Assembly (NCBI GenBank): GCA_900095095.1
Contig: FMBT01000290.1
Coordinates: forward strand, 806,001-870,000
Origin: Fragilariopsis cylindrus CCMP1102
Taxonomy: Eukaryota; Bacillariophyta; Bacillariophyceae; Bacillariales; Bacillariaceae
Direction of reading: 5' to 3'
DNA length: 64,000 nt
A program made the translations under genes and the position numbers. The notes under the pieces are model-generated. The model made no database searches. It was not told where the DNA came from and saw only the letters and a program-made list of their open reading frames with translations. Below, piece by piece: positions 2,012-56,200 of this stretch. Numbering within the stretch: the stretch's first letter is position 1; each line of letters opens with the position of its first letter.

Positions 2012-4248
2012 CGAAGGTGGTGATTTATTCGTGTAGAAGAGGATACAGTAGTTTGTGCTGCTTTGTTGTTGCTGTTGTCGATTGGTGGTGGAGGACTGAA
2101 AAAAATGAGAACGATTACTGCTTTACATCGCGTGAGAATGGTTGCGTATCGAATATAGACGAGCTAGTATATTTTATCTTTTAATTCTACTCTCACAGCA
2201 CCTACATACGCTGCACTACTGTAGAGGGAGTGATATTTTGTTGTACTTATTGTTCCAGGTGAGAGTTGCAAGCATATCTATTAAACAAGATCATAATTGC
2301 ACATTACAGTCCAATCGCTGTTCAAGTGCTACCTGTGCCCCTAGAGAACACAGTTTCTCCTCGTTAAATTACTCAAAAAAGGGTTTTTTGTACGATTATT
2401 GATGCGATGCTGTATGCTGTATGCTGTATGACGACGCGACTAAAGAAAAAGACCAGAAGAAAGCGAAATAACGTACGTACAATTGTACAGGAGAACTTCC
2501 TTTGCTACTGTTGTTCCTTCCATTCCAAAATTGTACTGCCCCCGCTGGAAAACACAATTTCATTGCTTAATAATTGCTGTTGATGCTATGCATACGTTTT
2601 TTTAATTGACACACGACACGACGACGCGAATAATAAAAGGGACTGAGAAAAGAGTTTAAGTACTAAGAAAGCAGGAATGAAAATCTGTACAAGATCTTTC
2701 TTCTTGATTTTACTAAGTAGACGCAGTCGAAGAACATCAGCGATAACGGCGAACACGGCGCGACTAAGAGAGATCTCTTTTTGAATTAGTTCATAGAGAC
2801 CCCATATTATTGTAATTGTTTTTTGCATGGGCGAACACAGTTGCCTCGTTTGAAAGTTGAGTTTCCTAAATAAAAATACTGTTTTTGGAGTGATACGCCA
2901 GTAGAAGTCAAATACGACGGCGAACGAAGCGACCCGAGTTATTTGAAGTGTTTCCCCACTTTACCAATGTTGATGCTCTTTAATAAAAATACTGTTTTTG
3001 GAGTGATACATACGCCAGTAGAAGTCAGGACGACGGCGAACGAAGCGACTCGATTTATTTGAACCATGGGCATCGGCATCGGTAATCGGCATCCACTAAT
3101 CCATTCATTTATAGATATGCTGTTATGAAAGGATTGACGTCGACGTTGTCGATGACGTGCTACCACGGTACTCTCCTGGTAGCGATTATGGAAAGGTCAT
3201 TTGTGATTACGTTTCATTACCTGAGAAAGTGTGGAACGATGACAGTGCTACTGGTGAGCTTTTACCGATATGGTAGATAAGTACAATGTGGCGCACAGGA
3301 AGATCCAAGCTTTAGCAAATTTGTATTTGCATTGATTGCCACTATATATCTGAATTACAACCTTGGAAGAAATTTTTTATACTAGATGTCACACTAGATA
3401 TTTGGTGGAGTGAGTCACTTCTTTCAGTGGTATTTGACATCAATTGTTTCTGGATTCCAGTATCATTATGAGATAGACATGATAAAGTAAAAAATGATGA
3501 AATGCAGTCATGACATTGATGCTGGTGATAGGTTTATCATCAATTGCTTATCAAGCGAGAAAGAATTCGTTTTGTGACTGCATTTAGTCGAAGTAAATTG
3601 AACCGAAGAATATCGGGGAAAATGGTGAAGTGCTCTGGATTTACTGAGTTGTTCCGAAGGGAAGGATTGAATAGATGCAGTGGTTGCTCCCCTGAGTATT
3701 ACCACAGCAAAAAATGTTAGATCAAACATTAGCCTGGGCACAGAATTTACTGCAAATAAGTAGTGTCAGCGATGTCGGCAGCAAAGTAATAACCAAAAGA
3801 ATGGGGATAAGAGAGAGAGTGAGAATGCGAAAGTGAGAACGATACGTACAAGTACACATATACATAGGATTCATATATCACGGTACAGTCTAATAGGATT
3901 TGGCTTTATTGTATAGAATACCAGAGAAAGATAGCAATGAAAAATGATTAGTATAGCAATGCTACGACTTAGCTAGAAGATTGAAAATAAATACTACAGT
4001 AGTGTGTCGTTTTCATCTAAGCCAGTTATTATTACTATCATTATTCTATAATATAATACGTTTTATCTTTCCAATATTTTGTTCTGCAGCTACTGCTGCT
4101 GGTATTGCTTTGCTACAATTGCTGGTTGTTATTATTGTCATTATAATTCCTCATTCATTATCGTCCTACTAGAATCATCAGATGAAGAACCAGTATTGCT
4201 GGCCGTTGATGTCGTCATCGTCGTGCGCGTCGGTTTAATGAAATAAAC
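2012..4248. other. Intergenic, no convincing gene; contains a ~78-bp direct repeat
   Basis: About 2.2 kb of AT-rich sequence. Small open frames on both strands (for example 2586-2828, 2939-3166 and 3508-3741, all minus) have no recognisable domain and look random. The one clear structure is a direct repeat at 2866-2946 and 2981-3062. Both copies contain the phrase 'aaaaatactgtttttggag' followed by 'cgccagtagaagtca' and 'cgacggcgaacgaagcga'. Confidence 0.6.
2866..3062 (+). repeat. Direct repeat pair, ~78 bp units
   Basis: Copy 1 covers about 2866-2946 and copy 2 about 2981-3062. They match over 'taaaaatactgtttttgga', 'gtagaagtca', 'acgacggcgaacgaagcga' and the closing 'tatttgaa', with a few substitutions and a 4-bp insertion in copy 2. 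The offset is about 115 bp. No coding content is seen. Confidence 0.8.
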
Positions 4249-28724: not shown

Positions 28725-28985
28725 GATGGTAGGAGACAAACACAATGTTCTAGTACACTATGTGGATGTTTGTGCACCTAACCCATCTAGTGTTGTCCTC
28801 TGTAACTGTTCCAAATGAGAAATTTTGTTGTTCATTATGTCTTATCCAAAATCATGTTTTTGTGTGTGTGCCTGCCACAAAAGCGAATTGAATTTTATTC
28901 CTCAACCACAGCAATAGAAAAGTTGTAGGAGGCAAACATAATGTTCCAGTACACTATGTGGATGTTAGTGCACTTGACCCATCTG
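28725..28985 (+). repeat. Direct repeat pair, ~65 bp units 196 bp apart
   Basis: Both copies contain 'agtacactatgtggatgtt', preceded by 'gtaggag(a/g)caaaca(c/t)aatgtt' and followed by 'gtgcac(c/t)t(a/g)acccatct'. Copy 1 is 28728-28793 and copy 2 28924-28986. They may be two units of a diverged satellite or parts of a mobile element. Confidence 0.75.
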
Positions 28986-31406
28986 GCCCGTCGCCCCCTG
29001 CAGTTAAGTCTGAGGGGTTAAAATGCTTGGGGGAACATATGGGGCTACACAATTGTTACCAAGAGACTGCTGCTTCTTCTAAGACAAAATCCTATGAGGC
29101 GTGCTGCATGTATGTCATGACAATTATTTGTCTGGAAGGCTCTGACTGAACATGCCATCCTTACTACAAGATGGTTCATTGATTCGGCTCTCCATACCTG
29201 TACACAATGTGATTCTTTCTGAGACTTTATCAGGAAGCCGACTTCACTATTAGTTGTCCATTTCTTCTTTAATTTTCCCTTCTTTTGATATATGACAACA
29301 TTTGACTACTACTCTCTGTTGTATAGGTGGTACAGACTCTTCCACGGAAAACCCAACTAAATTAGACCACATGAATTCCCTCTTTTCTCTGTATCTCTAA
29401 GGATTCAGCAATTGCAACAATGGTCCATGGATAATGGGACTTTACTACTGTTGCTGCTGCTGTTGCTGCTAGTAGTAGTTCAACGGAAGGTGGCAGGAGA
29501 AATAACAGCTATTTACCAACATAACACAACACAAGTTGTGGTTGAGTTAGCAGCATAAAAAATATAAGAGTTATGCAGGGCCCTTTCAATAGGACCCTTT
29601 CTTTATATCCCTATCTCTAGCCTCCTCTTTCCACCTACCTCTTCTACCATTCCTTCCATTGATTCCGCCATTGGCATTTGAACCAAAATATTTTTGTTAT
29701 TGCTGTTCCAGTTGTTCTATCATTACAATGTTATAACTTGTACTTAAACCAAACTAAACCAATTATTGTTCAACTTCATGTTTTACTCGTACTATTATTT
29801 GATTCAATATTGAACCTGATATTTTAAGTTTTCTAAATTTGTTTAGTGTCAACTTGACTAGCAAGTTAATGCCAGCATTACACTGTGTATTCTATGATGG
29901 TCTTCATATATACAAACAAATGATGTTAGGGTTTCCTTTTTGCTAGTATGTAGTGTAATATCAGGTAACATTATCTTCTTGCTTTTTGCAATTTGTTGTT
30001 GTTTAAAATAACAAGTGAGTCTCCCTTCCTGTCTTCACACCACAGGATTTTTGTGCTTGTGCAAGTAGATATGGATTACCCTCTCTTATCATGTTCTATC
30101 CTTGCGTGGTTGTGGGTATAGTTATGTAGAATAAATGCTATAGCACAGCAACCAACATGTTGCAACAGCAAATCATTCACAGGTAGGTAAGTGTAGCATG
30201 TAAGTAGCATTTATGCACATACATTATTATGGAGTAGTAATGGTTCAACGTAAGCATATATGCACACACATCATTGTCATGAAATATCTATGGTCAGAGG
30301 TAGGCAACTTTTGTGTTGAATGTTCACACACCACCATTAAGCGACAACAAAGTTGAATGTATGTAAATCATCACAGAGCAACAATAAAGTTGAACAATGG
30401 TTGTAACAGGTACAGTAGATAGTGGGCAGCATAATGGTGACAGCAAGCCTGCTGCACATACACCAATATAAGTAATGAACTACCAATAGCAATTCAAGGT
30501 AGTGGAAATTTTTGACTAAACTTATAGTTGAAAAACAAGAAAGGAAAAACCTTATCTAGCAAAAGATTTTTGTCAAGCTTTACAGTGTAAAGATTGTACT
30601 CAGTTCCATGGTAATTGATTGGTAGCTTTACCAAACGTGATCAAAACATGATATGGATCAATTTTTTCTTCCTGATGGTGGTGCTGCTGACAAGGATGAA
30701 CACGCCAAATGGAACAAGGATCAAAGATACTTTGAGATACTGTTCAGTAAGGATTTCTTCTTTCTCAAGTGCAATTTGTGTTAGACAGGACAATTAGTGA
30801 CATCCATCCTAATCAAAAATATCTACCTGGTGGTGTTGATTCAAGCAACAAAAGTCTCATTTTAGTGTTCAAGACTGGCAGGTTTCTGCTCTTGATAATA
30901 TGGTGCATCTATCATCTTAATTTATGATGGTTCCTGGGTTTCTTTTGAAGATAGCATCAGAGCAATGAGTTCTTTGACTTGTTAGATCCCATTCCAAGCA
31001 ATTACAGATACCATGGTGCACTGCTGTTCCATTCAGATTCCCGCCACACAACAATTGTTTTCTTCTGATGTTGTCATATTCTTACTTATAAAACAATGCA
31101 TATGGAAACTGTAGTGCTTTCAAATTTTTTAGGCCTATAAGAAGCAATACTAATAAGGAATGGAAAAGTGTCTGTATAAGTTGATTTGATAGGTGCCTGG
31201 TATGGTGTGCTACAATATAATATATAATTTCATTCAAATCAGATGAGGCAAAAATATTATTTCTTAATAATATGTTAAAGCAAAATTGATATTCAAAAAA
31301 ATTGCCAACACAGGGACACTATACATGCATACTGTATTGCTGTTGTTGATTTATACTCTCCTCTTCTTCCTTGAGTTGAATCCAAGGGTTGGTGGGGTTT
31401 TCTTCT

Positions 31407-42748: not shown

Positions 42749-43520
42749 TGTGTGTGAACTTGTGTTGTGTTGTGTTATTGATTTAATTTGTTTACGTATT
42801 ATTGGTTAGCTAGGGAGTATTAGTTGGTTGGTTAGTTAGTTGCTATATTATGGATTGGCTTATAGTTTGAGAGGTTGGCTGTTGGGAAGTTTGCTCTCAT
42901 CGTTTACCTGGTACAGTAATCGAAACAATCCCCAACATTCGCCATCTTTTTTCTTCACATCATTATTCTTTTACTCACATCACGTGCATTATTCCATTCA
43001 TTCGTGATTTTCATTCCCTTCTGATTCATTCGTGACTGGGATTCAAAAATCGAAAAAATATACTTCTTTCTTGCCCCTCCCCCCCGTTTGTTTGTTCATC
43101 GTCAATCGAAACAATCCCAACATTCACTTCTGATTCATTCGTGACTGGGATTCAAAAATCGAAAAATATATTTCTTTCTTTTCTCTTGCCCCCCCCCCCC
43201 CCTGTTGATCAATTCATTCAATGCGATTTTGCAGATAGCTTATATTGTTGAACAACATCGTATCCTTATGGCACAGAATGAGTGGCTTAAAATGATTCTT
43301 TTTCCAGGAAAAATTCCATAGATGCACCCATGCTTCTACAGCAGTAATAGTAAATAATTTTCTGTATGTTCTACGATTGAAGGTTCCTCCTTTGAGAATA
43401 CAGTAATAACAACAACAACAAAACAATGGTAGAATATTATGGCTGTTCTTTTTGCCATTTAGGTAAAATTATGGTTAGTTGGCTAGCTAGCTTGGGTGTC
43501 TTATTTTCGTTGATATATCT
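42749..43520. other. Intergenic with direct repeats and poly-C
   Basis: Upstream of ISD11 and downstream of the large minus gene. It carries the direct repeat 43018-43202 (listed separately). A 70-aa frame at 43214-43426 (minus) shows no domain. Confidence 0.5.
43018..43202 (+). repeat. Direct repeat (~107-bp period) ending in poly-C tracts
   Basis: 'tctgattcattcgtgactg' plus 'ggattcaaaaatcgaaaaa' occurs at 43019-43060 and again at 43129-43167. Each copy is followed by 'cttctttcttgccc' or a variant and a C-run (7 C at about 43079, 14 C at 43189-43202). Flanking 'atcgaaacaatccc(c)aacattc' appears before both copies (42917 and 43105). Confidence 0.85.
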
Positions 43521-46500
43521 TTATCCGATCTCTGTCTTCTCTACTTTTGTTAAATCCGATGATGAGTAGTTTATTGTTGTGGCTTGCCTATAACATTTAC
43601 TTAGGAGACAATCTTGATCTAGTACATTTTGAATTGATTCCGATCGTCCACATACATGACCAGCAACCATAACGATAAAGACAAGGCCAATCTCCATAGC
43701 AGCTTGATCATTAATATCATCCAATGGTAGTAATAGAATACGATCGATTAGCAGAAGTGCTAAATCAACAATTAAATCTGCATCGGTATCAGTAACTCCC
43801 TGGTTATAACACGTACTGATTTCTTCTTCGATGTGTGTAGTCATAGTACTATCTTCATGTCCATTGTTGACATCGTATAAGATAGGGGTTAAAGATAAAA
43901 TATCTAAAGGGTGTGCCTTCTCGGCTACTTCACAAAATAAATTGTAAGAAGATGGGACCTCGACACCTTCTTGTAGGATCATTTTTGATATAGCTGACAT
44001 TGCCTTCCAATTATTGTCTGTGTGGTCAGATTGCAACAAGTCAAGCAATGCGTCTCCAACTAAGCCCCCAACGCTACTTATACCGGTACTTTTATTATTG
44101 TGACGGGGAGAGTCAAAAGAATCATTATCCCAGTCAGGAGGAAGCATTGCAAAATCAAGACCAGGATCGTCTAAACTTCTTTTGATGAATGTCGAAGCCT
44201 CACGTTTGATAGCATCTTCCATTCTTTGTTTTTCGGATTCTCCAAGCATAGAAGATGGGACGATGTAATTAAGGATAGAGCTGCTTGTATTTAAACTACA
44301 GATAAAACTGCGTCGTTGAGTTTCAGGGGTAACAATCTCGTCCGAGATGCTACGATCCATCGTATCGACGGAAGTATCGTCACGACTTATCACTGAACGG
44401 TCTTCACAAAGCTCAGCATCCTCCAGTTTCATTCCAAAACGAAAAAAATCACCGAGTGCACGTCGTTCTTCTTCTGTTTTATCAAAATTACATTCACCAG
44501 AATCTGTATTGTTCACAAAATTATCGATTGCTTCATCCAGGAGTAAACCACAATAGTAACGAGCTTCAGCTTTACTAGTCAATAAAGGCAATGCCGACGC
44601 AGATGCAGCCAATGATCCTCCATCAATGCAAATCGTGAAAAGATCCACAACAGATCTAGCGTTGGCGCTGTCTAAAACATCGTCGCTGCTATATGCTTTC
44701 GTAGAATTTGCTTCGTCAAAAATATGCGGTAGCGGGAGAGGGAAAAGATACTCTAAGTTGCTAGGTTCGATTTGTCGACCAATTTCCAAGAAAAGAGATG
44801 CAAATTGAAGATTGGATGCACATCGGCGGGTGGCATCAACTATTGCTGATAGAAGGCTTTGACTCAGTCGTATATTAAATTTCGAAATATCAGATGGGTC
44901 TTTCGAGTATCTCTTGTGAACTTTCGAGATCAATTCTAATGACCTGAATACGATCAAACGCAGTACCATCATCGATATGTCAGTGCTTCGTGATGATAGC
45001 AATCGGTGTTGCACCTGACTGTCAATCACCTGTGATGAATTGTATTTATGGTTGTAGTAGAATAAAAAGATCCAAAAGTTAGCAAGTAATAATATCAATT
45101 CAAGAGAAAAACAGCATAAACGGAAATTAAGTACCTTTAATTGCCTTTTTAGATCATCAAGTTGTAACGGCGATTGTTTTGACACACAGAGGTCCATTCG
45201 TATAGATGCAGCTTCGAGGAAGAGTGTGAACAACGAAGTAGCGAAGGCCGGAGGTGTCATTAGAAAAGGACTCTGGGTATTCATGTCACCCTCAAGAATA
45301 TTAGACGAGAAAATATGCCTATCAATATCCCCTAATTGATTTCTGCTAAATTTTTGAGAGCTTTGACCTGACCTCAGAACGCATCCATAACTCGATTGTG
45401 GCACTAGGCCTAAAGCAATATCGACTTGACTACCGGAGGAGGATTGTAGAGCCCAATCAGACACACTACCCACTTCGCAAATTGTGCCGAGGATCCAGCG
45501 CCGACCTTCATCCATATTATTCTCTTTACTCACAAGGGAAGGTCGACTGAGTCCTTTTGGTTGCTTCGTATCAGGTCTTCTGATTGATGTCACGGATGGA
45601 GTGGGCCGAACGTTTCTCGGTGCATCGTTTTGGTCGCGGTGAGATGTCACAACTGATGGTACGGACCAACACAAGACTTCGCCGTTCAATAGCTCAATGT
45701 TCCATACAAATCTATAAACGGAACTGTCTGAATCCGGTAGATTTCTATGGGAAGAAACAGCATCAGATAGTTGAAATTTCGAGACTTCGGTTTCTGTAAG
45801 GGTTGCACCGCAAGTTTGTAAGTTTTTACCAATCGACAAGGCGTGCATCCCTCCCGGAGTACGGTTCACACCAAGCGTTATAGCGAAATCTTCTTTCTCA
45901 TCTTCTTTAGTAGTAATATGATTTCCCCCCAATTTTCTCAGATCAAAACGAAACCACGCCCCTGCAACAAATGCGGATGTTACTGGTCCTAACAAATCCT
46001 CCTTATTTTTTATGCTTGCCTGAAGTATTTTGTGTGACATAACATAGTACGGTCTAGAAGAATCATTGTTTTGAAATACTTGTAGCCGGAACACGCTATA
46101 GTCGCATTCTGTTGACACCCTATCGGGTGAATACAAAAGAACAACTGCTCGTCGTAGATCACCATGACACGTGGACTGATCTTGTTGAGGCTCGGCAAGA
46201 ATAGATATGTTCGTTACTCTAATATCCATCGGTAAAGGTATACCCCAAGATGGCTCTGGATCTTGCGACTCGCCCGGTTTCCATTCAAGGTCTGGGGTAT
46301 CCAACAACTGATGCATCAAATCCAAACTATAGGTATATATGTGTGTGTGAGTAAGTGTGCGTGAGAGAGAGAGAGAGAGAGAGAGTCCATACATTGTTCG
46401 AACAAACAAGTTGCATGTTTGTTTGTTTCTTTATTTACTACTTACCGTTTTGACGACCAGCAGCCTAGAAATTGTTCACCATTTCTCGTTTGGATGATAG

Positions 46501-49285
46501 CTACCAATAAATCATCCTTGTCGCGTTCCTTTCTTCTTTTTAGATTTCCTTCCCACCATGTCATGGCTACTACAGAAAACGATCGTTCTTCACTTGGACT
46601 ACCAAACTGTTTCCATTTGTTATTACTGGTATCCATGACGCATACTCCAAAAGCGGACGAAACAGCAACCGATTTGGCTGCAATGGGACTAATTATTGCA
46701 ATTTTAGGTGGTCCATGGGACATGGTGTACGACAAAGGCAAAGCGGAAATCTTCCAATCAAGTTCAAGCATCGTTGGGTCAGAATCTTTCTTTGCAACAT
46801 ATGGAAAAGAAATATGGTCTCTAGCAAGTAACAACGAGGATCGTTCGGTAAATACACCTGGATTGGTTGAATTGTCTGGCGATAATACGGCAGCTGGGAC
46901 GATCCTTTTCCCCGTTTCGATGACTTTATTATAAGTGTTCTTATTTGTACTATTCGAGTCATTATTAATCCCACTACTATCACCATACCGTAACGAGGCA
47001 TTAATGTATACCAAATGAGAGCCTCCTCCGTAGTTCGAATCTCGACCACTATACAAGCGTGACCAGATTTGGTGTTGTAACGTCGCATTCATTATCTGCT
47101 TTTGAATCATCCACCCGATAGAGTTTGATCTCCAATTCCATACACACCCAATCCAATAATAATTATTATTTTTACTACCGAATATCGAACTGATTAGAAA
47201 TGAATTCGAATCAGGATCATGTTCTATACCATATAATTGTCGAGAATGGATCTTAGTCATACTAGTAGTAGTACCATCCAAATCAGTTCCATAATTCTTG
47301 CATTCATCGTTGTTGTTGTTGTTGCTGCTGCTGTCCGCAACACTTGACGCTTGTTCAACTTGATCGGCCGATAAGAATAATGATACGACCGGTACTAATT
47401 CACCAGTAGTATTACTGATGGTCAATACTTGTGCAATCCGTTGGCTTGGTCCTAAGGATGCCGATGTTGTTGATGTTGATGGCAATTGGCAATAAACTAC
47501 GCACAATACGGAAGCCAAGGCACCGAAGCAAACATCGGCTATAATTTTGTTGTTACTGTTGTTGTTACTGTTGCTGTTGGATGTTGGTGACCAAATAGAT
47601 AATAATTTTACATCCATCCTCGTCCTCGAGCCACCACCACCCCTACCATTTTCATTTTCCGCACTAGATCTTCGAGGTGGAACACGAGTTGTAAGTTTCT
47701 CTTTACTTTGCTGTTGCTGTTGATCGTCATCATGATAATCTATTGCTTCTGATTCGTCTGAGTGTTGTTGTGACAATGTAGCATGTCCAGTACTTGCACG
47801 TCGTATACTTGTCATTTGAACTTCTGTTGTTAATTTTTTTAAATTCCATTCGACAACAACCATCAAACTATTACATTCTCCATCATTACTATTGCCATTG
47901 TCATCCCCATCTATCAGCACCAATAACCCCTTTTCGTATGATGAAGTTGGTGATGTTTTCATTATTGATGTAATAGTAGTATCGACACTTCCTCTTCCTC
48001 TTCTTCTTTTTGTGCTATTAGTATTAGTATTATTAGGCAAGGATGCAGTAGATAAAATTTGTACGGAACGAGTATCAATCCATATCAAGGTTCGATCATA
48101 ATTCCGTAAGGCTAAAAAGCAACAGTTACTATTCAAAGGAATGTTGTCGTTGTTGCTGTCGTTTTTTACATTATTATTATTATTATTATTACCGATACGA
48201 CAAATCGATGTAATACCCCAACAACATGGAACAAATTTTGGACTAGTAGCAATAACTGGTGATGATAACGATGCTGCTGCCATGTTGGTAAAGGACGACG
48301 ACGACGACGACGATGACGACGATGTGCTATTATTGCTGTTGCTGTTGCTATTGATATTGCTATTACTGTTGTTGTTATCACTGCTGCTGCTGTTGCTGCT
48401 GTTATTGTTGCTATTAATAATATACGAAGGAAGTGGTATATCACTTCGATCATTACTAGTACTATTTCGACGAGGTTTCCGTAATTGAAATACGATTACT
48501 GACGATTGTTGTTGCTGTTGCTGTTGTTGTTGCGGTGGATGAAAAAGTAAAACTATTAATTTTTTTCTATCTCCAGAAAAAAGAACTTGTGGTGGTTGTG
48601 GTTGTGGTTGTTGCTGTTTTTGTTGTTGTATATTCAGAAATGAAGTAGTAGAATTCGAATCATCATCATCCGATGACGACGAGTCTAATGAATCCGATTC
48701 TGATTCTGATTCAGACGATAATGATTCTGAATCATTTGAATCCTCCGAGTCATCAGTATCATTACTATTCCTGCCATAATCAGAATCAGAATCAACATCA
48801 ACCTGAACGTTTTCTTCATTATCGATTAATAATTCTAACTGGTATATTGTTTCTCTATATGTCGATGATGATAATGATCGAATTAATGGTGAAATTTGAA
48901 TTCGAATTTCTACCATCCTTCTTCTTCTTCTTGTTATATTTTTCATTTTTTTATCATGATCATTCTCATTCTCATTCCTATTGTCATTCTCATACCTATT
49001 GTTGTCATTATCATCATTATCATCGTAATAAAATGATATAACAACTCTAGCTTGCCATTCATTTCTTGGACAAATTGTCCATGTTACATTTTGATTTTGA
49101 TTATAATTTCCAGTATACGTGTGTGGTTCATCATCGTCGTCGTTCTTCTTTTCGTTACTATTATCCTTAACATCAGTATTCACATCTTTGCCACCCCTTG
49201 CCGATTGTTGTTGTTGTTGTTGTGGACATTGAAGTAGTCGTTCGGATGATAAAGACACACCGCCAACTGCAATCGGTAGAGGCAT
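43521..49285 (-). CDS. Giant hypothetical protein, ~1,846 aa, three exons
   Basis: Two long frames belong to one gene. Exon 1 is 49285-46446, exon 2 46326-45135 and exon 3 45029-43521; total 5,541 bp, exactly 1,847 codons. Intron 1 (AAAACG/GTAAGT to CCTATAG/TTTG, 119 bp) joins CWSSKR to LDLMHQLLDT; intron 2 (TTAAAG/GTACTT to ATCACAG/GTG, 105 bp) joins RQLK to VIDSQVQ. The N-terminal 600 residues are heavily Asn-, Ser- and Gln-rich with islands such as SSVIVFQLRKPRRNS, KFVPCCWGITSICRIG and LALRNYDRTLIWIDTRSVQI that could be beta-propeller strands. The later two-thirds is well-structured in composition (helical around 1300-1800) but I recognise no domain. No signal peptide is seen. Residues encoded by 47917-47691 share sequence with ABCA intron 1. 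Function unknown. Confidence 0.75.
45030..45134 (-). other. Intron 2 of giant hypothetical gene (105 bp, frame-neutral)
   Basis: The donor is GTACTTAATTTC and the acceptor AATTCATCACAG. Its length is 35 codons with no stop, so retention would add a hydrophobic stretch (SLELILLLANFWIFLFYY). The intron reading is preferred because of the splice signals and AT-rich composition. Confidence 0.75.
46327..46445 (-). other. Intron 1 of giant hypothetical gene (119 bp)
   Basis: The donor is GTAAGTAG and the acceptor ATATACCTATAG, read on the minus strand. It contains a (CT)n and (CA)n-type low-complexity stretch. The intron joins two frames that would otherwise look like separate genes. Confidence 0.85.
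47691..47917 (+). repeat. Source copy of ABCA intron 1 (antisense coding DNA)
   Basis: This + strand segment starts 'gtaagtttctctttactttg' and ends 'catccccatctatcag'. It matches 52188-52420 almost throughout, with a few substitutions and small indels in trinucleotide stretches. Here it lies within exon 1 of the giant minus-strand gene, coding (antisense) for the region around EVQMTSIRRASTGHATLSQQ. Confidence 0.95.
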
Positions 49286-50224
49286 TATTCTATTATTATT
49301 ACTTATCTATTCTATCCTATCCTATCCTATTCTATCCTATCTATCGATCGATCCCCTCTCTCTCTCTCGCTCGCTCTCTCACGCACACACTTTCTCGCTA
49401 TCACTTACTCTTGACTCCATTTCCCTCTCTAAGACTACGCACAGAGAGATAAAGAGATGTGTAGTAGTATCGGTATGTGACAGAAGAGAAAAGATAGATG
49501 AACAATGTCAAATAATTAATAATCCATCCTTCGTGAGTTGCTGTTTTTTGAAAATTTAAGCGGGACTGGACTGAAATAAACTTTGCGTACAGAAATAGTC
49601 CCTCTATTTTATTAATCTTTTGAATGAGTCGTACATTGTAGGGCCTACATTTTTCCACCATCATGTACTGTACTTCAAGTAACTTTTATGGGAAGGAACA
49701 AGCGACGCACCTTCTTTTACTTCTTTTCTTGTTCGTGCTTGACTTGCTTTCGACTTCAGATATATCGCATCCACACACGACGAGAAGCAAGAATGAAGAG
49801 CTGCGATACTACGGTAGAGGAAAGTGAAGAGTTTTGTGAAAGCAGGATACAAGATAGTAGGCACGATCTATCACTTGTACTTTGTTTTGAGTCGTGACGA
49901 GATCTATGATAAAGTAAGATCGCACATCCTATCCAGATTGATAAGAAAGAGGCCATTATTGTAACGTTAGAGAGAATACTGATATCATTTTGACACAAAA
50001 TTAATACACACAAATTGAGAAACCCGTTTACAGTAAAACAACATCAACATCAACATCAACAGGAAGTGCAACCGCAAACGCAATCGCAACCGCAACAGCA
50101 GCAGCAACAGCAACCGCAACCGCAACAGCAACAGCAATAGCAACAGCAATAGCAACAGCAACAGCAATAGCAACAGCAAAGCAAAGCAAACACCAAGTGA
50201 CCGAGTAACGCCACGCGGATCGCA
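49286..50224. promoter_or_regulatory. Bidirectional upstream region with CAA/CAG-type repeats
   Basis: 939 bp between two divergent ATGs, so it should hold promoters for both the giant gene and ABCA. On the giant-gene side there is (CTATC)n and (CT)n low complexity (49310-49395). On the ABCA side, 50041-50185, a hexamer-like run based on 'caacag', 'caatag' and 'caaccg' leads to 40 bp before the ABCA ATG and probably forms part of the 5' UTR. Confidence 0.55.
50041..50185 (+). repeat. CAACAG/CAACCG hexamer-like repeat upstream of ABCA
   Basis: About 145 bp of imperfect CAA-N-A/C-G units, beginning with (CAACAT)n and passing into 'gcaaccgcaacagcagcagc' and 'caacagcaatagcaacag'. There is no in-frame link to the ABCA start. 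Confidence 0.85.
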
Positions 50225-53200
50225 ATGACAACAATGGCAGAGAAAGATACGGAAGAAGCTATCACTACTGATCCTCGTAGTAATAGTAGCGAACAAGCAG
50301 TACAAGAAGTAGAAGTAATACGAAGAACCTCCCGTCCAACAAAATTGAAACAATTACAAACATTGACAAAAAAACAATTTAAAATTGATTGGAATGAAAA
50401 GAAATCATTATGTATACGAATAGTAATTGGACCAATTTTCTTTTTCTTATATACACTATCTATTAGGCCAGGGAATAATTCGAGTGTGAGTGGTGTGGAA
50501 GGAATTCCACCTATCTTAGGATCAGCACAAACATTCCCATACGAACAAATTAATTGGACGACAGTTCCTGATCACGATGTTATTACTGACCCTGTTGGTA
50601 ATGATGATGATGGCTGGCAACTCTTTCTTGGATCGAGTCCATCATTACAGAACAACAACAACAACAACAACAACAACAGTAACAACGTGCAAGCAATCTT
50701 TGCTAACGAATTGTCAATTGCGTTGGGATGGGGAGAAGCATCATCATCATCATCTTCTTCGAATGATACTTTGAACGACACTTCTACTAGTATCAGCAGT
50801 AGCAATAGCAATAGCAGCAGCAGCAGCAGCTACAAGAATGAAGTTCTGGTAGTACCATCGAGTACAGAAAATGACTTTCGAAGTTATTGTAACGAATTGT
50901 CTTCTACACGAAGTTCTTTTTTCTTAGGATGTATATATTTATCAGACAATACACCGAATTGGAAATACGTTTGGATGCCACCTGGATTGCCACTCAAACT
51001 TTTGTATGAATCATCATCCTCATCTCCCTACCTGTTAGTCAAGGATGGAGATGAATCGTCGTCGTTGTCAATTTTAATGGATCAAAATATTATTGCAGTA
51101 CAAAATGCTATCCAAAATTCAATCCTTGCAATTGAATTGCAACAAGAACAATCATCATCAACAACATCAACTTCGAATAATAGTAGTTCGATTAATTATG
51201 AGTTCATCCAACGTCAACCGATTGAAATTGTTGAAGACAATGAGAATAACAAATTACCATCATGGGGAATGTTATTGGCTGTTGGTGCATATGCTAATTT
51301 AGGTGTATTATTTATGTTAAGTATATTTGCACAACTTGTTAGTGAAGATATACGTATCGGATTAGATCGGCAATTTTTACTAATGGGTGTTTCATCAACA
51401 ATATATTGGTTTCATTATTTTATTGTTTACTCAATTGAGAATATTGTAACAGCTACATTGTATACAATTATATCATACATGGTATTCTTAAGTGAGTGCA
51501 ATTTTGGTCTATTACTATTAAGTTTTATAACAGCATTTTCTGCAGTTAGTTCATTAATTGTCTTATTGCCAACGTTCGTTAAACAACCTGATGCAATACA
51601 GGTTGTACCATTTATATTTATACTGGTATCAATAATTATTTGGACACCTATTATATATCTTGTAAAGGATCCAGCAAATGTAATTATTACATTACTTAGT
51701 TTACTAAATCCTATATGGGGTATGCAGCAATTATTGGCATCGTATTATTCCTTTACTGGGGCAGGTCTTGGTATTGGTGTGACAACCATAATGGAATGGT
51801 GGGATTGTGGCGCCGGTCCATGTTTTATCGCACAAATTGGTAGCATCATATTATATCTTAGTCTAATTCATTATAAGAATCGTCCAAAACGAGGAACAAT
51901 CCCATCAGCATCCGATGAAGATAAGCAGTCAGCGTTGACACCATCCAAGTACATTCAATCGATACCAGCTGAACGTAATGCATCAGATATTGCTATTTCT
52001 GTTACAGGGTTACAGGGTTACGAAAAGAATTCATTATTGGTGGTAGTGGTAAAACTAAAAAGACGATAAAAGCTGTAAATGGATTAAATATGACTGTATT
52101 GAAAGGTGAAATTTATGGATTCCTTGGTCATAATGGTGCGGGGAAAACTTCGGCATTAAGTTTGCTGGCTGGTGAAATGTTACCAACGTAAGTTTCTCTT
52201 TACTTTGCTGTTGCTTTGTTGTTGTTGTTGTTGTTGCATCATGACAATCCATTGCTTCTGATTCGTCTGATTGTTGTGACAATGTAGCATGTCCAGTACT
52301 TGCACGTCGTATACTTGTCATTTGAACTTCTGTTGTTAATTTTAAACTCCATTCTACAACAACCAACAAACTATTACATTCTCCATCATTACCATTGCCA
52401 CTGTCATCCCCATCTATCAGGTCTGGAGAAGCTGTATTTCATTTTGATAATTTTCAAAACCAAAACCAAAATGATGGTACGTCAACAACAACAACAACAG
52501 CAACAGAATCATTGTTACCAATCGCACAAGGGAACGAAGAAGAGATTCGTTCACGTCTTGGATTTTGTCCACAGCATGATATACTATTTCCAAATCTATC
52601 ATGTCGACAGCATTTAGAATTATTTTCTAGACTGAAAGGTGGAGTAAAAATAACGAACGAGGGACAATCTGAAGAGGATGCTATCCGAATCGAAGTCGAA
52701 ACACGTCTTGATGAAATCAATTTCCCCGAAGATGAAGACAATGATAAACCGTGTGGTACTCTTAGTGGTGGAATGAAACGCAAAGTTAGTCTTGCATTAG
52801 CTTTGATTGGTGACCCATCTGTTGTTTTCCTTGATGAACCCACATCCGGTATGTAAACGAAAGTCGTTACTGTCGTTCTTGCTTAAAGTTGCAGTTGTTG
52901 TTGTATTAATTTTGGTTTTTTTTAATATCGTTCTGATAATTCTTCTTTTTTAAAATTGTGATACATTTAAAACCAAATGTTTTAATTGCTCCGCATGCAG
53001 GTATGGACCCAGCAAATCGTCGAAGTGTTTGGGAGATGATTAGTAAAGCGAAAAAAGGACGTAGTATTGTGTTAACTACACACTTTATGGATGAAGCAGA
53101 TATTCTGTCCGATCGGATCGGCATCATAAATGGAGGTAAAATGGTAGCAACTGGAACATCGTTGTTTCTGAAACAAAACCTTGGGACCGGTTATCGTTTA

Positions 53201-56200
53201 ACTTACGAGGTCTGCAACGGCGAAACTGCAGATCAAGTACGAACATCAATACAAACGATGATACCAAGTCTTGATCTTATTAGCGTTGCTCCTTCAACAA
53301 ATATAAATGGAAATCAAGTATTCAAATACCACGTTCCTCAGGGTTTGGAGTCGAAATTTGCTCCTTTATTGCGAGAACTTTCGAATCTTGGATGTATAGG
53401 CATCGAAATGGAAATGACAACTCTTGAGGACGTATTTCTGAAGCTTGGCGGAGAAAATGCCACCAGTGATTCTGACGATGACTTCGAGGACAACACTAAC
53501 AATAATACTGAGGATACGGACTCTAACGGGGACCACTTAATCCAACGACCACAAGAAGACCAAGAAATGGATGACATTTGGGGTGATTTAGGAGAAAAAT
53601 TGAGCCTTAATTTCATCCAAAAAGTATGGATTGCTGCTAAGGTGAATATAATAAGAAAAGCGCGAGATAAACAATACTTGATTTTTGTGGTTTTATTGCC
53701 AATAGTCTACGGAATTGTAGGCTTTGGCCTGAGCTACGCTTTCGAGAGGCAAGCTAGTACAGTCAGATCCCCTTTACCGATTGCGCTGTCGGCTGCTGCA
53801 ATGGGACATCCATTACCTACTTTTGATCCAGCTGTATACGGGATAGCACCAAGTGTCGACATTGGAGACGGTGTTGTTTGGGAGGAGGAAGTACCTACGA
53901 GTCCAGATGGATTTTTGTCTCCTCCAACTGGAACCTATTTTCTGGGTGGACCGTTAGGGAACGGTACATTAATGTACAACTCTTCGTTAACTTTTTCCGT
54001 GCCACTGCTTTCGGGTCTACTTGCAAATTATACGCTTGCAGAAGAATCACCAGGTACATCTATTCTCGGATACCTATCTCCCCTAGATTACACCGATAAC
54101 AGTATCCTTGCTGTGTCGTACATGTAAGTCATATCCAATTGTTAGTGCATTTTTTCATCATATAAAATCCTGTGGATGGATCTCACTCTGCTTTTTCGTT
54201 TCAGACTTGTGCCAATAATGATTTCATTCGGTTTTATGTCCGCATCGATTCTTGTCGTTGATCTTCTACTCCTCAAGACCGACAAGATGTATGCGCTATT
54301 CCGATCTGTGGGAATTTCTGCGATACAACTTCGCGCTGGTGTGGCATTGCAGTCCATTTTGATCAACGTTGTGCCGTTTTGCTCGGTATGTATAATTCTT
54401 GCTTTTGCTCTTTCAAGGTAAGTACACATGATTGTTACACTATCGGTCAAGTATTATAAAATTTTGTATTATTCTACTATGATGCTGTTCTGCTACTTAA
54501 AAGACGTTGTCAATTCCTTGTCCTCGCCTATTTGTTTAATCTTTCGTTTAAATACCATTTGCTCTTTGAAGTCCTCTAGTTGGGGATGGTGGACGATGGC
54601 TTGCCTTTATTATGACTTTCATCGGTTATGCTTATGCGATCACACCTTTCTCCATGATGTTTGAGCCGATATTCAAGTCGTACAAAGCCGCGAAGGCTTG
54701 GTGGCAACTAATATCTCTGATCATACAGATGTTACCTTATGTAATATACTCAATTATTTTTCTTCCACCCATGTCTCAAGCCAAAAGTGAAACGGCGCAA
54801 ATTGTTTCCTCTATACTTTACATCTTCCCTACGTTTGTGTTGCAGAAAAACCTGGGATTTTTACAATTAACAAGCTTCATTCCTGGAGAAGTCACGTGGA
54901 GCTATGTTTGGAGTTGGAATGCTGGCGTTTGGTTCGGTATTCTGATGCTTTTTGTTATGGGTTCTATTTTTTGGGCAGTCGTTTACTGGTTGGCTGTGAG
55001 GAATGAGACGCATCAGTATGGATCGTTGAGTCCAGATGTTGACATTACGAATGACTTCGATCTAGTCGAGGAACGTAAACGAGCATTTCATGAGCACAGC
55101 GGTATTCATATAATGGACGTAGTCAAGCACTTTCCAGCTAAGGCGTCGTCACAAAGCTTATTCAACCGATCCATAAAACCAACTGAAGAGAAGCTTGCTG
55201 TTAAGGGAATAAGTATTGGTGTTGCACCCGGCGAGCTATATGTCTTGCTCGGTCCTAATGGCGCAGGTAAGATCTGTTGAATTTTGGTTGCGTTGTTTCG
55301 TTCGCAATAGAATCGGTATTATGACCCACCGTCTATAATATCAAATAGAGTGTAAAATTATGTGCTTGTTTCATTTGAAATTGTTTCTCTTATCCAAAAC
55401 TCACACGATTGATTGAATCCAAACTATTTTTGAACGCGCATTTAGGCAAGACAACACTAGAAAGCTGCATTATGCAAGATCTTTCCATGGATGGTGGTAC
55501 TATTTCAATGGGTGATCTAGACACCGTAAGCGATTTCTTTAAAGATGCCAATGTTGGTTACTGCCCACAATACGATTCTATATTCGAGGATCTGCTAGTT
55601 GAGGATCACATCAAATTTGTTGCCGAGGCAAGAGGTTTAGATACGAAAAGTAACGAACGTCATAGACTTCATTTGGATACTATCATTAGAAAATTCGGTC
55701 TCGATTCGCATCTTTGCAAGATGGCAAAAGCACTTAGCGGAGGGTACAAACGGAAGCTTTGTCTCGCAATAGCATTGATCGGTCATCCGAGTGTTCTTAT
55801 TGCCGACGAACCATCAACAGGTGTTGACCCGGTAGCACGCCGTAGTTTGTGGACCGTTCTAAAACCTTCCGATGAGAAACGTCTATTGCTTGATATGCCA
55901 GCAACACTTTTGAGTACCCATTACATGGAGGAAGGAGAGAATCTTGGAACAAGAATCGGAATTCAAATCGATGGGCAACTCGTTACATCTGGATCATTGA
56001 CTCGACTAAAAGAAAAATATTGTCAGGCTAATTTTTTGGAAGCAACGTTTACCCAAGACGCGCCGAATGGTGCAGAGGAAGCACTGTGCTACTTCTTAAA
56101 ACAGCAAGAAGAACTCAAACCACAGATGCAAGAATCATTAATGGGACGTGTAAAGATTCAATTTCCGGTTCAGTCCAATAAATCTGTCGTCCAGCTTGCT

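Follow-up and report, generated by a model that had tools for sequence, protein, structure and literature searches.

The first intron of an ABCA-type gene in Fragilariopsis cylindrus probably originated as a copy of antisense coding DNA from the gene next door. In the reading we prefer, to which we give a probability of about 70%, a single local copy of exon DNA from a divergent, RIC1-like neighbour was laid down in the ABCA gene as templated filler during the repair of a break, and became an intron there. All positions refer to the window, the whole 64,000-nucleotide stretch of DNA analysed, which lies on contig C91 of the assembly.

The predicted intron and its source segment

The ABCA coding region 5′ of intron 1 (50201..52187, + strand), whose start is not fixed, comprises the membrane domain and the first part of nucleotide-binding domain 1, and exon 2 (52421..52848, +) supplies the remainder of that domain, to PTSG. 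Between them lies intron 1 (52188..52420, +), 233 bp long and in phase 2, with GTAAGT as donor and ATCAG as acceptor, and with pyrimidines at 15 of the 20 positions preceding the acceptor. Excision of the 233 bp joins EMLPT to SGEAVF in frame. The resulting product, ...GHNGAGKTSALSLLAGEMLPT/SGEAVF..., regains the conserved PTSG motif and aligns without gaps to residues 915–959 of ABCA1, spanning the junction; this was the best alignment among 565 distinct PDB sequences. Retention of the segment leads to an immediate stop (EMLPT*). From the GT...AG ends and the frame restored by removal, two features of a U2-type intron, we infer that the segment is spliced from the ABCA mRNA, as the earlier note had supposed. 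A mild weakness is the branch site: the nearest YTNAY motif lies 85 bases from the 3′ end of intron 1, and introns 2–5 have one at 19–57 bases or nearer (19, 23, 36, 37) from theirs.

The counterpart of this intron (47691..47917, in the + orientation of the copy) corresponds to residues 464–539 of a 954-residue open frame on the − strand (46442..49306). This frame confirms that the source sits within an exon of the divergent gene and codes on the opposite strand. The neighbour had been described as a "giant gene"; its position and strand stood, and its name is refined here to RIC1-like on the strength of a partial match to Pfam PF25440 at residues 843–919 (E 1.1e-11), which at 45 bits falls below the curated cut-off of 150, so that the label is a putative one. 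In the source region itself, Pfam returned a weak unrelated match (E 0.18), the RIC1 match falling outside it, and sequence searches of the PDB gave no RIC1 chain. An AlphaFold2 model of the region, built from one sequence, had a mean pLDDT of 32 and, being uninformative, was set aside. No relatives of the RIC1-like protein were found in our viral-contig and genome-contig collections, which are without eukaryotes.

With intron 1 as a genome query, the match to 47691–47917 extends over the full length of the intron (1–233), with an E-value of 4.9e-82 and 88% identity including gaps; the segment sits 4.5 kb from the intron in the same + orientation. By global alignment the two differ by 8 substitutions per 220 aligned positions (3.6%; roughly 96% identity), a count that shifts slightly with the alignment chosen for a trinucleotide run. 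There are also three length differences, one of +12 in the trinucleotide run and two of −3. Since each is a net multiple of three, the intron copy still forms an open frame on the − strand. Homology runs from the first base of GTAAGT to the last of ATCAG. Beyond these points the 30-bp flanks, compared without gaps, are identical at 5/30 positions on the left and 10/30 on the right; the flanks are therefore unrelated, and the homology ends sharply at both splice sites. The target reads AAC-GT-CTGG, which leaves the ends of the copy ambiguous by 2 bp (GT). Microhomology at the junctions amounts to this 2-bp GT on the left, where the donor site itself needs GT, and to none on the right. The earlier note's account of the pair, with a whole-intron match in the same strand orientation 4.5 kb away, shared GTAAGT and ATCAG ends, and high similarity broken by small indels, agrees with both the genome search and the alignment.

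Routes from exon to intron

In the break-repair reading, the ABCA exon would once have been uninterrupted, and some 230 bp of the RIC1-like exon would have been copied into it at AAC/GTCTGG, keeping the + orientation. A break in ABCA would have exposed a 3′ end (GT) that primed on the RIC1 exon; the exon would have been copied as filler, and the broken ABCA ends would then have been rejoined. With usable splice sites already in place at both ends of its antisense strand, the segment would have been spliced out of the mRNA from the start, which would have allowed the insertion to persist. The copying itself, we infer, was DNA-templated. An intron copied from elsewhere in the genome, as expected for break-repair filler, is what we found, and the earlier note's preference for this mechanism is plausible. 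The exactness of the ends has a price, however. Among 287,520 random 227-bp segments of the surrounding 144 kb, four start with GTAAGT and end with CAG. For random filler to have splice sites exactly at its ends is thus a strong coincidence, unless numerous insertions that failed were purged. It must be assumed, in other words, that only spliceable insertions survived.

This coincidence is what lends weight to a route through RNA, which we rank second to filler and consider unlikely. Here an RNA running antisense through the RIC1-like gene, possibly a read-through product or an ABCA 5′ leader begun far upstream, would have been spliced at GTAAGT/ATCAG, and the intron then reverse-spliced into ABCA RNA or otherwise made into DNA. 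It is conceivable, at the same low likelihood, that ordinary exons carry ready-made introns on their antisense strands: such a transcript would itself be spliced at this segment, and the freed RNA would have been inserted exactly, from end to end, into ABCA, an RNA-mediated local transfer that turned coding DNA into an intron. The RNA route predicts homology ending exactly at donor and acceptor, an arrangement of ends found in just 4/287,520 random segments, and with the source located 5′ of ABCA in the same strand orientation, an extended ABCA transcript might contain it. That antisense spliced transcript is nevertheless hypothetical. An origin by reverse splicing would need a spliced intron as its source; the segment here falls within an open frame that codes for the RIC1-like protein, and may yet be an intron on the antisense strand. 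Nor is the target, AAC/GTC, an AG/G proto-splice site. Introns 2–5 are kept in ABCA, so a path through cDNA needs partial recombination. Reverse splicing is called extremely rare in the accessible part of one review (PMC3443670). We place templated filler first.

The insertion site and the direction of copying

Of 32 other loci tested, 27 matched the ABCA domain, and in 16 the site of intron 1 lay within a single match, which was free of stops in 14. As several form near-identical pairs and many belong to other ABC subfamilies gapped near the site, the informative loci come down to two ABCA domains on contig C40 (L012 and L022), distant paralogues that read straight through it. Their lack of an intron at this site argues against an old intron position in which the content alone was replaced by the RIC1 copy. 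Homology that reaches both splice sites leaves no remnant of such an older intron, and we regard content replacement as improbable.

There is likewise a slim chance that the insert is no intron, the ABCA locus being a pseudogene or an allele that carries an insertion, or else misassembled. In favour of this, an exact 8-bp tandem duplication in exon 1 (ACAGGGTT twice, 52004–52019) shifts the frame just before the conserved LRKEF, which may mean an inactive ABCA copy or a fault in the assembly at this point; the duplication could reflect an error of assembly, a null allele or the footprint left by an excised element. The assembly is likely a PacBio one, for which residual errors are known from the available text of PMC5634323. 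On the other hand, the two copies differ at 8/220 sites and in length, unlike a collapsed or duplicated read artefact, and exact GT–AG ends together with exact restoration of the motif are unlikely by chance. The rest of ABCA consists of long open exons. We found no allelic contig for the ABCA exon or the RIC1 flank in the assembly beyond short low-complexity matches.

Elsewhere in the gene, intron 2 (52849–53000) has a direct repeat, GGTATG, at both sides (CCG-GTATGT... and CAG-GTATGG), of the kind reported around Daphnia neointrons. At intron 5 (55267–55445), the donor side AGGTAAGA resembles the exon that follows the acceptor, AGGCAAGA, at 7/8 positions, and this near-repeat falls within Walker A of nucleotide-binding domain 2.

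Several observations favour an exon-to-intron direction, in which coding came first. Frames were scored with codon statistics drawn from 30 other open frames (15,570 codons) within the 144-kb region. Read in the RIC1 frame, the source reaches 0.43 bits per codon and intron 1 reaches 0.47, with no stops in either; the remaining five frames of each range from −0.40 to 0.05, and the RIC1-like exon has a mean of 0.28 (SD 0.12) over 36 windows. The best − frames of introns 2–5 score 0.14 to 0.32 bits per codon, all with stops, and each of their 12 − frames contains at least one. Among 20,000 resampled non-coding sequences, the chance of a stop-free frame of such length was 0.0034–0.0040. As judged from sequence features, namely this frame, its coding signature and the intron-free C40 paralogue domains, the earlier note's direction, from antisense exon DNA to intron, appears to be the right one.

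The opposite course, in which an older ABCA intron was the template for the segment in the RIC1-like exon, is very doubtful. Deleting exactly 227 bp from that exon shifts the frame, with a first stop at residue 471; the segment would hence be an integral part of the RIC1-like frame, unless the insertion was slightly imprecise. Such imprecision could be tolerated, as removal of 228 or 225 bp leaves the frame open, and the region is one of low complexity. But the segment in RIC1 has no flanking target duplication (GTT/CACC), and its coding signature and freedom from stops would be a matter of roughly 0.4% luck.

Between the two copies, 7 of the 8 substitutions, which are unpolarised, change an amino acid in the RIC1 frame, close to the 82% (543/666) expected without constraint. 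There is accordingly no sign of protein selection, and the copy looks free of constraint; on the same figures we rejected a second coding role for it as a RIC1 exon.

Copy number and comparison with known intron gains

The genome-wide search for further copies that the earlier note had proposed was run on the 67.9-Mb assembly of 818 contigs; it passes over simple repeats, and its counts are lower bounds. Seven candidates were scored with intron 1 as query: the intron, the source, and five short matches of 37–50 bp, all within a low-complexity, trinucleotide-rich stretch of the query (3–69). Long matches thus number at least two, the intron and its source, and with just these two listed no introner family is seen. 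With the RIC1-like protein as query, only its own gene and intron 1 appeared among the 48 of 77 candidates scored. ABCA introns 2, 4 and 5 each match nothing but themselves in the genome (the intron 5 query was one base short). When the 144-kb region was compared with itself, intron 1 and its source formed the sole same-strand pair spaced 1–10 kb apart under the filters applied; it also turned up one inverted pair, of 96 bp and 2.9 kb apart, along with numerous tandem pairs and 40–120-kb repeat-family pairs.

Other repeats are common in this part of the contig. Tandem duplications, diverged and with periods close to 100–190 bp, are numerous in the 144 kb of C91, for example 43012–43085 with 43121–43195, and 2853–2947 with 2966–3063. 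A dispersed repeat family, with tandem units inside it that measure about 190 bp, occurs on both strands, at 28729–28986 of the window and at about 778.5–779.3 kb and 874.8–875.2 kb of the contig; it is possibly part of a mobile element. The GC content of the sequence is 37%.

Although introners do give rise to introns whose ends are splice sites, membership of such a family or of a transposon family has next to nothing left to recommend it: the 68-Mb search gave two long copies in place of many, one of them the source, and no terminal repeats were seen, GT alone being repeated at the ends. Tandem genomic duplication was rejected as well, the source being not adjacent and lying in another gene.

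The origin of new introns is an open question, and the proposed history of intron 1 can be set beside four known kinds of gain. The new introns of Daphnia share with it an insertion into an exon, GT–AG ends and an ancestral frame regained on excision, and repair filler has been proposed for them too; yet of 90 such introns, four had BLAST matches to potential sources, mostly weak, according to the accessible text of that study (PMC4202315). The ABCA intron, by contrast, has as its source a nearby coding exon with 96% identity over the full length, and its flanking repeat is merely GT. Drosophila introns that match mitochondrial DNA were also explained by filler DNA; in the part of the report available (PMC3296678) such matches to the mitochondrial genome concern eight introns, with E-values up to 0.1, whereas the source here is nuclear and local, at E 4.9e-82. 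Tandem genomic duplication likewise turns a copied coding segment into an intron, but in the available portion of PMC3443670 it involves an adjacent stretch of the same gene, on the sense strand, with AGGT repeats, in contrast to a source 4.5 kb off, in a different gene and antisense. Introners resemble the present case in that the inserted DNA brings both splice sites; they are multi-copy families, as described in the accessible part of PMC9860276, and the ABCA intron is single-copy. In the open-access literature, so far as its accessible text goes, we found no report that traces an intron back to antisense sequence of a neighbouring exon; the subscription literature may contain some.

Intron 1 offers a rare view of the origin of a new intron. 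Its donor survives a short distance away, 96% identical and antisense to coding sequence, and the ends of the copied stretch coincide exactly with splice sites. This makes a specific route testable within one species, for which RNA-seq and Sanger data have been published. If the proposed origin is true, coding sequence can hold latent introns on its opposite strand that become functional once they are moved.
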